From an uncultured bacterium (lineage in GTDB: Bacteria > Cyanobacteriota > Vampirovibrionia > Gastranaerophilales > Gastranaerophilaceae): 64,000 nucleotides of DNA. The DNA lies in NCBI GenBank assembly GCA_902777385.1, contig CACYTP010000001.1, forward strand, positions 186,001-250,000, read 5' to 3'. Shown one piece after another: positions 36,771 through 52,832 of the stretch; positions within the stretch are counted from its first letter, which is position 1, and each line of letters starts with the position of its first letter. The translations under genes and the position numbers were made by a program. Under the pieces are notes generated by a model, which was given only the letters and a program-made list of their open reading frames with translations, was not told the origin of the DNA and did not search any database.

Positions 36771-37136
36771 ATGAAAGAACAGTACACAAATCAACACAGA
36801 AGATGGTATGACAAAGATCCGGTATTATCACAGGCAATTTCTACACTTGAACACAGTGATGATGAAACCCAGATTAAAGTCGCATTAAATCTCATTAAAA
36901 TCATTATTGAACACAATATTGAAGATGAGCAGTTTGAGGCAGTAGAAGATATTATTAACGCAGTAGGTTCAGGCTTGGATGATAACAGAAAAGGTCGTTG
37001 GTACGATATTGATTCAACAGTCAGAACTGCTATGAATATGCTTCAAAATTGTCCTGAGGCAACTCAGAGAATTATTGCTAAAGAAATGGCAAAAATGGTT
37101 GTCGATAAAATCAATGATGATGGTGAAGAAGCTTAG
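36771..37136 (+). CDS. Small protein with two RWYD repeats, unknown function
   Basis: 121 residues with an internal duplication. RWYD at 11-14 and again at 76-79 each open a helical unit of about 40 residues (RWYDKDPVLSQAISTLEH and RWYDIDSTVRTAMNMLQN) with hydrophobic residues at matching places. All-helical and acidic, with no Cys or membrane helix. A strong AAGGAG site is present. No known family; it is probably a lineage-specific protein-protein interaction module. Confidence 0.75.
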   Translation: MKEQYTNQHRRWYDKDPVLSQAISTLEHSDDETQIKVALNLIKIIIEHNIEDEQFEAVEDIINAVGSGLDDNRKGRWYDIDSTVRTAMNMLQNCPEATQRIIAKEMAKMVVDKINDDGEEA

Positions 37137-37159
37137 TTTTCTTCAAAAAGAGTTTAAAA

Positions 37160-37200
37160 ATTCCCCTCTACTGTGCAAACATGTGAAGGGAATTTTTTAT
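37160..37200 (+). terminator. Probable terminator
   Basis: AAATTCCC near 37162-37169 pairs with GGGAATTT near 37188-37195 around a partly paired loop, followed by a T run. The same motif ATTCCCCTCTAC occurs again about 205 bases downstream in the palindromic element. Confidence 0.6.
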
Positions 37201-37263
37201 TACACCTATTGAAGAACTGTAAAAAATATGTTAAAATAATAAAAAAACAGGAGGATTGAAACT

Positions 37264-37302
37264 ATGAGTATATCTATATTTAAACGTAGGGGGGGGGGGT
37301 AA
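37264..37302 (+). other. Short leader frame broken at a G11 tract
   Basis: An excellent ribosome site (AGGAGG, 37249-37254) precedes ATG 37264. The frame reads 12 residues, MSISIFKRRGGG, then stops at TAA 37300 directly after 11 consecutive G. With 12 or 9 G the frame would instead run open to 37520, through the segment FSGEGSDLSDSVKS that is also found ahead of the second pseudopilin. It therefore looks like the true translation start of this locus in another phase. Confidence 0.55.
37289..37299 (+). repeat. Homopolymeric G11 tract
   Basis: Eleven consecutive G in otherwise AT-rich DNA, eight codons after a well-placed ATG. Such tracts are classic slipped-strand contingency sites. It could also reflect assembly or sequencing uncertainty in length. 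Confidence 0.9.
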
Positions 37303-37372
37303 AATCCTCTCGTAGTAATGGTTTGCAGAGTTTTGTGGCTGAGAAGTTCAGCTATTTTGGAATAGGAAATTT

Positions 37373-37442
37373 CCCCTCTACCGTCGGGAGAGGGCAGAAA
37401 ATCGACTTTAGCAAAGCGAAAGTCAGATTTTCGGGTGAGGGG
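37373..37442. repeat. Palindromic repeat element upstream of pseudopilin
   Basis: Outer arms CCCCTCTACC (37373-37382) and GGGTGAGGGG (37433-37442), and inner arms AAAATCGACTTT and AAAGTCAGATTTT, fold into one long imperfect hairpin. A nested CCTCTACC/GGGAGAGG also pairs. GC content is far above the surroundings, like a REP/BIME-type element. It lies inside an open frame. Confidence 0.65.
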
Positions 37443-37468
37443 TCAGACCTTTCAGATAGTGTTAAATC
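37428..37468 (+). repeat. 41-base segment shared with second pseudopilin (copy 1)
   Basis: Identical over 41 bases to 51996-52036. It starts TTTTCGGGTGAGGGG, the right end of the palindromic element, and ends GTGTTAAATC. Confidence 0.9.
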
Positions 37469-38253
37469 CGCACATAGCTCAGTCCCCAAAGCCTCGTCGT
37501 GTCGCCTTTACTCTCGCTGAAGTTTTAATCACCCTCGGTATTATCGGTGTTGTTGCGGCAATGACATTACCTGCTTTAATACAGAATTATCAGAAAGGTG
37601 TTGCATTAAATCGTTTAAAACAAACCTATGCACAAGTTCAAACAGCTATAGATACGGTTGCAGCCAGAGATTTTGACGGACTTCCTTTACATCAGTGGAG
37701 TTGCGATGGTCAAACAAAGTTTAGTGGCGTAAGATCTTGGGGAGAAAGATATGGTGACGCTTGTCTTTATCTTGCAATACAAGAGATTGCCGTAAAAATG
37801 TATCCTCAACCTGACAGTATAGAACATGCAATGTGCTATGAAGAAGGTAGAGAGTATAGACCTTATACCGGACTTGGAGGAGGTACTTCTGAATTTAGCG
37901 ATGGAAATAAACTTTCTACAGCAGGTATATCAGCATTACTTCCTAATGGTGCTTGTGTTCGCTGGCATTGGGCTGCACATGCATTTAATGCAAGAAGTAC
38001 TATAGTATTTGATATTGATGGACCTTATTCCGGATATAATCAGTATGGAAAGGATGTTTTTAAGTATTATTACTCCACACCTAATACAGGAATAGGCAGA
38101 GGTGCAAATGGCAGACTTCTTGAAGCACATAATCAAGGAGCACGGAGATCAGACTTAAAAAATTATTGCAAAAAAAATCAAGATTGGGCAAATTCATGCG
38201 AAGCTCTAATATTAAACGACGGCTGGCAGATGAAGTCCGATTATCCGTGGTAA
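37435..38253 (+). CDS. Type II/IV pseudopilin-like protein; start uncertain, possibly frameshifted
   Basis: 272 residues as an open frame from GTG 37435. RRVA-FTLAEVLITLGIIGVVAAM is the prepilin cleavage and helix motif (cited by AFTLAEVLITLG), followed by PALIQNYQ and a variable secreted domain of about 200 residues with paired Cys. A prepilin peptidase would cut before FTLAEV. No ATG precedes the motif; GTG 37435 or GTG 37459 would give leaders of about 24 or 16 residues, neither with a good ribosome site. The well-initiated frame from 37264 is out of phase, so expression may need slippage or may be lost. The relative at 52107 ends with the same NDGWQ-K-DYPW motif. Confidence 0.75.
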   Translation: MRGQTFQIVLNPHIAQSPKPRRVAFTLAEVLITLGIIGVVAAMTLPALIQNYQKGVALNRLKQTYAQVQTAIDTVAARDFDGLPLHQWSCDGQTKFSGVRSWGERYGDACLYLAIQEIAVKMYPQPDSIEHAMCYEEGREYRPYTGLGGGTSEFSDGNKLSTAGISALLPNGACVRWHWAAHAFNARSTIVFDIDGPYSGYNQYGKDVFKYYYSTPNTGIGRGANGRLLEAHNQGARRSDLKNYCKKNQDWANSCEALILNDGWQMKSDYPW

Positions 38254-51241: not shown

Positions 51242-51982
51242 ATGGGTGACGGAAAAGTTGAATATGTAAATTTCGGCGGTGCTTTGGTACCTGAAAACAG
51301 CAGAAGGACGACTATACCTGATGAGGAAACAGGTAAAAAACTTTACTGTGTATTTTTGGATGATAAAGGAACAAAGATTACTTATCCCGAGCAAAATAAA
51401 AAACAGCCAAAACAGATTGAGTATGTCAAATTAACCTCAAGCAGAGCCAGTTTATTTGGGGGTGAGGCTACTGTACATGAAACAAATATAAGCAAGGCTC
51501 AATTTGATTCAATATGGGAAGATGCACGTTCATTTACTTCCTGTGAGAATTTAAACGCTAATAGTGTTAAATCTTACTATAAGGGTGATAATAATTTAAG
51601 ACATGTTGAGACCGGAACTAATACCGGATTAAAATGGTATTACGAAGGATTTGTTGATACTCAGCCAAAAGTTGAAATTCAGCAGGAAGGGTTGTTGTTC
51701 AATACTAATAAGATGAAAGTTTCAAACTTTAGTGGTGCAACTGTCAAGGGTTCTGAAGATGAAGATGATATTACCCTGCAAAATTCTGATAATTGTACAA
51801 TAGAAGTTGATTCAGATAACAACAACATACTGTTTTCCGATAATGTAAAAGTAGTTAACGGTTCAGGCAACAAGGTTGTTGCAGGTGATTATGACAAAAC
51901 TACATTTGCAAAATTTGATTACAATACTGCAAAAGAAACTGCCGTGAAACAGTATAAAAGTGAAGGAAAATATAAACAATAA
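51242..51982 (+). CDS. Beta-rich protein, unknown function
   Basis: 246 residues without signal peptide or membrane helix. VEYVNFGGALVPENSRRT opens the protein. The last third has short repeated strands with NNNIL, NVKVVNGSGN and SDNCTIEVDS that suggest a small beta-helix or beta-roll. One Cys occurs in ARSFTSCEN. AAGGGG precedes the ATG by ten bases. Its 3' end overlaps an open frame continuing into the second pseudopilin. No family recognised. Confidence 0.7.
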   Translation: MGDGKVEYVNFGGALVPENSRRTTIPDEETGKKLYCVFLDDKGTKITYPEQNKKQPKQIEYVKLTSSRASLFGGEATVHETNISKAQFDSIWEDARSFTSCENLNANSVKSYYKGDNNLRHVETGTNTGLKWYYEGFVDTQPKVEIQQEGLLFNTNKMKVSNFSGATVKGSEDEDDITLQNSDNCTIEVDSDNNNILFSDNVKVVNGSGNKVVAGDYDKTTFAKFDYNTAKETAVKQYKSEGKYKQ

Positions 51983-51995
51983 AGTTTTCTATTTA

Positions 51996-52036
51996 TTTTC
52001 GGGTGAGGGGTCAGACCTTTCAGATAGTGTTAAATC
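51996..52036 (+). repeat. 41-base segment shared with first pseudopilin (copy 2)
   Basis: Identical to 37428-37468. Here the left half of the palindromic element is missing, so only its right end (TTTTCGGGTGAGGGG) and 26 following bases remain. Confidence 0.9.
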
Positions 52037-52065
52037 TTTAGTATCAACAGTCGAAAAAACGGCTG

Positions 52066-52105
52066 GATTGCCGCGGTCGCAAGGCTACTTGCTCCCTCGC
52101 AATGA
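52066..52105. repeat. GC-rich palindromic element inside pseudopilin leader
   Basis: ATTGCCGCGGTCGCAAG (52067-52083) and CTTGCTCCCTCGCAAT (52088-52103) form an imperfect hairpin. It resembles dispersed ATTGC...GCAAT palindromes seen in other bacterial genomes. It is in frame, adding about 13 residues (GLPRSQGYLLPRN). Confidence 0.6.
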
Positions 52106-52106
52106 C

Positions 52107-52832
52107 ATGGGTAGTAAAGTCGCCTTTACTTTGGCAGAGGTTTTAATCACCCTCGGAATAATCGGAGTAGTTGCGGCAATGACTTTGCCTGCCTTAATTC
52201 AGAATTATCAAAAGGCACAGGCTGTATCTCAACTTAAAAGAAGTTATGCTGTTGTTCAAAATGCTGTAGAGTTTATAAGAGGTGAATATGACGGTATTGA
52301 TATGAATGCAATGCCATTTGTGCATATGGTAAATGGTCATCCAAAATATTTTGATATGGCAATGTTTGCCGATGAATTAAGTAAACATTTAAATTATTTA
52401 GAAAAAGGTTATCATAGTGCATATTCTGATGAAGTAAAAATGTGTTTACCGGAAAATACTGACAAAAGCTATAAATGGGCAAATGCTTCAAAGCAGACGG
52501 GTTGGGGTGTTGTAAGATATTGGTGGAAACTAAATGATGGCTCCTGTATAGGGTTTAATTCTCGTGGCAATAATCAAAATTGGGTAGAAGGTAATGATAA
52601 AGTGGTTCTCTTTTATATAGATATAAATGGAAGTGATAAAAATCCTAACCAATTTGGCAAAGATACTTTTGTTTTTGAATTGTTGCATAGTGGTAAAGTA
52701 ATACCATTTTTAGACAATAGTACAGATCATAGTTGTGCTTTAAATGGTTCGTCTGCATACAAAGGTTTGACATGTGCTAATAAAATTATAAATGACGGTT
52801 GGCAGATAAAGCATGATTATCCTTGGAAATAG
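52107..52832 (+). CDS. Type II/IV pseudopilin-like protein
   Basis: 241 residues from the ATG at 52107. MGSKVA is a short basic leader, then FTLAEVLITLGIIGVVAAM is the prepilin cleavage and membrane-helix motif. QNYQKAQAVSQLKRSY follows, then a variable secreted domain with at least four Cys and a terminal NDGWQIKHDYPWK. The frame is open back to GTG 51960, through the 41-base repeat and a palindrome, but a leader of over 50 residues would be unusual. No good ribosome site precedes either start. Probably part of a type II secretion or type IV pilus-like apparatus processed by prepilin peptidase. Confidence 0.82.
   Translation: MGSKVAFTLAEVLITLGIIGVVAAMTLPALIQNYQKAQAVSQLKRSYAVVQNAVEFIRGEYDGIDMNAMPFVHMVNGHPKYFDMAMFADELSKHLNYLEKGYHSAYSDEVKMCLPENTDKSYKWANASKQTGWGVVRYWWKLNDGSCIGFNSRGNNQNWVEGNDKVVLFYIDINGSDKNPNQFGKDTFVFELLHSGKVIPFLDNSTDHSCALNGSSAYKGLTCANKIINDGWQIKHDYPWK

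Follow-up and report, generated by a model that had tools for sequence, protein, structure and literature searches.

A run of eleven G residues lies directly behind a strong ribosome binding site and ahead of a pilin-like coding region in the window, that is, the whole 64-kb stretch of DNA from a member of the Gastranaerophilaceae that was analyzed here. Does the length of this tract switch a pseudopilin gene into and out of frame, as the original prediction proposed for the locus, and does the tract stand alone or belong to a family of such loci?

Results

Architecture of the Window Copy

Re-reading of the coordinates in the sequence bore out the predicted Shine-Dalgarno (SD) motif, the ATG at 37264, the G11 tract and the TAA that follows it directly at 37300 (Table 1). 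The eight codons said to separate start and tract required correction: the ATG is followed by seven codons, ending in CGT, and then by an A, and the tract begins inside a codon (AGG), 25 nt past the first base of the ATG. Four overlapping G8 matches were counted in the window against a shuffle mean of 0.17, a number that 0 of 100 shuffles reached, and since there is no other run of at least six G or C, the tract is not due to chance. Poly-G tracts of such length are hypermutable in the bacteria that have been studied, according to passages in PMC4235727 and PMC8224891.

With 9 or 12 G, frame arithmetic leaves the frame of the ATG open to the TGA at 37518-37520, as had been claimed, and gives 84 or 85 aa that include FSGEGSDLSDSVKS; the segment encoding it is also found, again as claimed, ahead of the second pilin, with 100% identity over 42 nt. 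The pilin motif is located in the 11-G frame, in which the stops at 37300 and 37363 are followed by an open stretch through FTLAEVLITLGIIGVVAA up to 38251. The earlier statement that full expression would need a further shift therefore holds, and the cause that it had missed is the out-of-frame fusion of two leader modules, A and B, at 37468/37469. Because the two modules stand in different frames, the ATG is never joined to the pilin at any tract length. The window copy is thus an OFF member, non-productive from its ATG at every tract length in this assembly, and tract length does not control the frame of its full gene. L065 is broken in much the same way.

Module A is a repeat of ~180 nt that occurs about 19 times, nearly complete or in part, in the genome that contains the window (G000), the copies being up to 94-98% alike by blastn. 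Alignment with the syntenic locus of G005 showed 372 nt in the window in place of 227 nt of other sequence, between flanks of 97% identity upstream (to about 37131) and 91.5% identity downstream (from about 37504). The G005 locus (L164) is compact, consisting of a start, G10, KSSHSKG and the pilin; the pilin ORF is open in one phase, which is not that of the start in the assembly.

The structure model of the window pilin (pLDDT 78, pTM 0.80) comprised a 50-residue N-terminal helix and a small sheet. No PDB entry matched this model in Foldseek at E ≤ 0.001, a type IVb pilus ranking second with E = 0.77, and Pfam and NCBIfam returned 0 families for the window fragment from the E of FTLAE, which lacks the first motif residues. 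Pilin C-termini, at 38210-38250 and at the ends of many relatives, share a conserved DGWxIKxDYPW, and this end is kept even in the truncated copy L023, where the middle of the protein is lost.

Table 1. Features of the poly-G locus and of its second leader copy in the window.
Feature	Position	Strand	Basis
Replaced segment, by comparison with syntenic G005/RUG10582 (rumen relative)	37132..37503	+	alignment
Shine-Dalgarno motif AGGAGG	37249..37254	+	sequence
Frame from the ATG through the tract to TAA (12 aa in the assembled, 11-G state)	37264..37302	+	frame reading
G11 tract, sole run of at least 6 G or C in the 64-kb window	37289..37299	+	run count, shuffles
Leader module A (KSS..AEKFSYFGIGN..FSGEGSDLSDSVKS)	37290..37468	+	blastn vs own genome
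Leader module B (HIAQSPKPRRVAFTLAEVLITLGII), a further repeat, joined to module A out of frame at 37468/37469	37469..37560	+	blastn, frames
Pilin-like coding region, FTLAEV to stop	37507..38253	+	frames; 244 aa from 37519 modelled
Second copy of the module A end, ahead of the second pilin ORF (51960-52832), without SD-ATG-tract cassette	51995..52036	+	sequence match

Copies in the Genome of the Window

The element at 37240-37560 gave 62 blastn matches in G000. This genome contains 36 runs of at least eight G, one of length 8 and the others of 10-13, and reading of all 36 revealed the same 5′ cassette at 34 of them, usually ahead of a pilin-like gene; L079 and L095, in which the ATG is lost, are among the 34. 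The two runs outside the cassette are L075, in frame in a TonB-like gene, and L083, a G8 elsewhere. An uninterrupted run of at least 10 G is present in 34 cassettes of this genome, and about seven interrupted ones were seen. At one interrupted tract, GGGAGGGGGG of L027 (G000:C12), which is out of frame with the ATG, the leader-plus-pilin frame is open over 412 codons, with a TTG in the pilin frame.

On the 3′ side of the cassette, a leader that often consists of repeats is followed by FTLAEVLITLGIIGVVAAMTLP or close variants, unless the gene is broken or cut by a contig end. The prepilin motif was examined in one relative: L154 of G005, which is in frame as assembled, matched PF07963 with 26 bits (cut-off 21.2) and TIGR02532 with 22.5 (cut-off 16.3) and thus carries the N-terminal cleavage/methylation motif, and a prepilin peptidase (PF06750, 122.8 bits) is encoded in G000 itself (G000:C21). 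Leaders in L061-L096, in other genomes and at 52040-52115 of the window resemble translated repeat DNA before the cleavage motif, as in RHPEDNMSLRGAESSATKQSS, CHPELVSGSSHSKTLGS and AGLPRSQGYLLPRNDM, and the frame is kept open. A double prepilin motif, e.g., FTLAEGATHVAQSAKPRRAAFTLAEVL, was seen in L070, L094, L150, L155, L162 and L163 and looks like a duplication of the cleavage region through recombination between copies.

Distribution Across the Family

A search pattern of SD, ATG, 10-35 nt, H and G8 was present in 87 of 288 family genomes, and its reversed form, used as control, gave 0-3 matches per genome; the most matches in one genome, 87, were found in G009, within about 2.3 Mb. Among 117 genomes sampled across the phylum, those outside the family had 0-4 matches, which by eye were not of the same kind. 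A contig scan for other strains of the window species yielded four loci only, from two rumen genomes; the named relatives are RUG10582 (G005) and RGIG6833 (G003, sheep rumen). The tract measures 8-15 G across the family, the sequence 5′ of it differs between genera, and 14-207 aa (median 54) precede the prepilin motif. Pairing of the SD with a downstream CCTCT was rejected as a general feature, the motif being absent by eye in several genera.

Seven non-pilin proteins after such tracts were scanned and comprised four acyltransferases (PF01757; L116 and three in a row in G197), two epimerases and one TonB-like protein. The three G197 genes (L340, L343 and L346 in G197:C60) are consecutive, with a G12 just past each start that in the assembly leaves one gene out of frame and two in frame, and at L120 (G037:C8) neighboring NAD-dependent epimerase genes carry G12 and G11 tracts. 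Acyltransferases and epimerases are classical phase-variable gene kinds.

Phase of the Tracts

A total of 277 tract loci were read in 21 genomes, most of which were sampled in part, the pattern being known in 87 of 288 genomes; entries required an SD-linked start, and a locus repeated identically was entered once. Loci were regarded as intact when the best phase gave at least 200 aa with the pilin motif and the next longest phase no more than 70 aa. By this definition, 205 of the 277 loci have a long pilin ORF in exactly one phase, so that tract length sets the frame of the gene. The remaining 72 include contig ends, broken ORFs, non-pilins and weaker motifs; L383 (G148, n = 15) is in frame and was excluded by the motif filter. 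Tract lengths among the intact loci range from 8 to 14.

Counted modulo 3, the start and the pilin share a frame at 22 of the 205 loci, whereas the tract exceeds the in-frame length by one base at 113 and falls short of it by one at 70. Against 68 in-frame loci expected at one third, the 22 observed correspond to a binomial p of about 1e-13 for loci that are not independent, and random frame choice was ruled out by this scarcity. ON loci were found in 11 of the 20 genomes having intact loci.

The phase was concentrated by genome, with a statistic of 101 against a maximum of 73 in 2000 permutations of 177 intact loci. Counts of in-frame, too long and too short tracts were 0/0/13 in G033 (13/13 in one phase, all n = 10), 0/1/11 in G237 and 1/0/8 in G208 (11/12 and 8/9 in one phase, n = 9), 0/8/0 in G231 (8/8), 0/6/0 in G130 (6/6), 0/16/4 in G148 and 1/16/3 in G000, and mixed phases were found in G142, G256, G005 and G008. 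The flanks of the tracts are only 33-72% alike within the near-single-phase genomes, so that, provided the tracts do slip, inheritance of one unchanged sequence hardly accounts for the shared phase.

ON and OFF Versions of Related Loci

L217 (G008) and L364 (G009) are 99.4% identical over 2.5 kb, and 12 of their 18 differing columns fall within a 79-column patch over the start and the tract, which has n = 10 in frame in one and n = 11 out of frame in the other. Orthologs of G000 and G005 are OFF and ON, respectively, at L084/L154, L082/L150 and L096/L160; other pairs agree, and L072/L158 are both OFF but in unlike phases. Identical tracts were observed in L218/L363 and in L225/L202. The leader also differs in L217/L364 and in the three ON/OFF pairs of G000 and G005, so that slippage alone may not account for these differences. 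In several pairs the flanks can be aligned while the 5′ part cannot, suggesting that exchange of the 5′ segment contributes. The proposed contingency switch is well supported as a class by dozens of copies here and in related genomes, by their position early in the ORF, mostly ahead of prepilins and at times ahead of enzymes of the surface-sugar type, and by the occurrence of both states at orthologous or near-identical loci; it does not apply to the window copy, in which no tract length joins the ATG to the pilin.

Discussion

We consider it probable, at roughly 60%, that the window G tract belongs to a large family of slipped-strand poly-G contingency loci that are mostly OFF. Each locus of this family would consist of a strong ribosome site, an ATG, about 6-12 codons, 8-15 G and a leader ending in a type IV prepilin cleavage motif. 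Slipped-strand mispairing would lengthen or shorten the tract by one G and in this way join or separate the start and the pilin frame, cells would differ in the pilins that they make with most genes OFF at any time, and the 5′ cassette of start, tract and leader may be exchanged between copies by recombination. The window copy would then represent an OFF member with a replaced 5′ segment and an out-of-frame fusion of its leader modules. Phase variation by slippage accounts for the existence of the tracts, for the pairs in ON and OFF states and for the kinds of genes involved. Against the simplest contingency picture stand the scarcity of in-frame tracts (22/205) and the several genomes that are nearly confined to one out-of-frame phase, and to account for the former, slippage needs either selection against in-frame alleles or sampled populations that were mostly OFF.

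The rates given for C. jejuni in part of PMC8224891 show an insertion bias at G8-G9 and a deletion bias from G10, so that tracts confined to the interval from one in-frame length to the next would accumulate at one end of it. Such a slippage bias fits many genomes, not all: phase was related to tract length per locus (p = 5e-7), and this significance was lost when loci were collapsed by genome (p = 0.7). By our own arithmetic from Table 2 of that source, about 36% of a {9,10} pair would be at 10, vs 13/13 in G033. Loss of MutL was ruled out as the reason for the tracts, since TIGR00585 matched in 271 of 288 genomes at E ≤ 0.001, 230 of them over the cut-off; G000 is included, which argues against a MutL-less mutator background in the genome of the window.

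Programmed recoding is the alternative that survives best, and we regard it as unlikely. Under this explanation the genes are purposely maintained out of frame at the DNA level, and ribosomal frameshifting or slippage of RNA polymerase on the G run yields pilin in a fixed proportion. The depletion of in-frame tracts, the concentration of one out-of-frame phase within genomes, the pilin ORFs that stay open, the five nearly phase-invariant genomes and the 0 in-frame tracts among 20 intact loci of G148, an assembly of about 10 contigs, all speak for recoding. However, the shift that it requires differs between genera, tracts being one base too long in G000, G009, G130, G231 and G148 and one base too short in G033, G237 and G208; tract lengths vary from 8 to 14 among the intact loci, in-frame loci occur in 11 genomes, and the same tracts are located ahead of acyltransferases and epimerases and in an in-frame TonB-like gene. 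Recoding explains the data in part: the fixed phases follow from it, but shifts needed in both directions, tracts of unequal length and in-frame alleles do not. prfB and dnaX are programmed frameshift genes. The loci described here resemble them in the out-of-frame junction within intact genes and in the nearly invariant phase of some genomes, and differ from them in having no single shift direction, a variable tract length and some genes that are in frame in the DNA. A classification table of programmed frameshift genes forms part of PMC3711429.

It is improbable that most tract genes are dead, or serve as recombination donors like silent pilin loci, with the tract as a leftover. The window copy and L063, L065, L072, L086 and L093, which yield no pilin at any tract length, speak for this reading, as does replacement of the 5′ segment between orthologs, but long leader-pilin ORFs are kept in one phase at 205 of 277 loci, and uninterrupted runs of at least 10 G in 34 cassettes of G000 stand against about seven interrupted ones.

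We give slightly less credit still to translation from another start codon in the pilin frame, by which the tract would have no control of expression. A TTG in the pilin frame before the tract was found at 12 of 19 intact out-of-frame loci of G000, where it is often available in the MIGFKH-type copies; L079, with its ATG lost, has such a TTG in frame with n = 10, L027 keeps its leader-plus-pilin frame open with an interrupted tract, and the window has GTG codons at 37435 and 37459 in the pilin frame past the second stop. On the other side, no obvious SD was seen by eye before these two GTG codons, and at 125 of 155 intact out-of-frame loci the stretch from the last stop to the tract contains no ATG, GTG or TTG in the pilin frame, which rules out an alternative start for most loci.

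Mis-assembly of the tract length or of the module junction in the window is the least probable of all, since, although module A is a repeat whose copies are up to 94-98% alike, several contigs end in such cassettes and short reads are reported in part of PMC4235727 to fail in poly-G/C of at least 8, the replaced segment is flanked on both sides by G005 synteny and tracts of this class are present in 87 of 288 family genomes, contiguous G148 included.

The proposed poly-G contingency loci can be compared with known systems. Pilin variation in Neisseria involves gene conversion between pilE and pilS and a poly-G tract in pilC. Pilus genes, recombination between copies and poly-G switching in the same organelle are common to both, whereas in the present loci exchange seems to affect the 5′ segment and not the mature pilin, and every gene has a tract of its own. 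The poly-G contingency loci of Campylobacter (the phasome) are alike in that G runs are located inside ORFs, are present in many copies per genome and control ON/OFF states through the frame. Unlike those of Campylobacter, the tracts described here belong mostly to one gene kind (prepilins) in a different group of bacteria, MutL is present, most loci are OFF, and the tract lies mostly 18-37 nt past the ATG, in a leader expected to be removed by cleavage. With type IV prepilins and pseudopilins (PF07963, TIGR02532) the products share the FTLAEVLITLGIIGVVAA-type motif and the long N-terminal helix, and they differ from the usual members in the 14-207 aa that precede the motif and are frequently encoded by repeat DNA. 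Searches of the open-access literature on phase variation in Melainabacteria and on pili or phase-variable genes in Gastranaerophilales found no report of poly-G pilin switches, and more general searches, judged by title, gave none in this group. In metagenome-assembled genomes, these pilins are probably cut short or overlooked by gene calling.

As to the standing state across the family, we put forward only tentatively that dozens of pilin genes per genome are held one base out of frame at a poly-G tract, to be expressed by recoding on the G run or from an OFF state one slippage from ON, with start-tract cassettes traded between genes and in-frame alleles selected against. If the poly-G contingency reading is true, the repertoire of the family, at up to 87 pattern matches per genome, would rank among the larger of its kind known (5-81 phase-variable genes per strain are given for Campylobacter in a passage of PMC6321876), and most of the tract genes read would belong to one surface organelle, in a lineage with rumen relatives. 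The hundreds of natural tracts would then provide a test set for the factors that determine tract length and for the reason why in-frame tracts are avoided.
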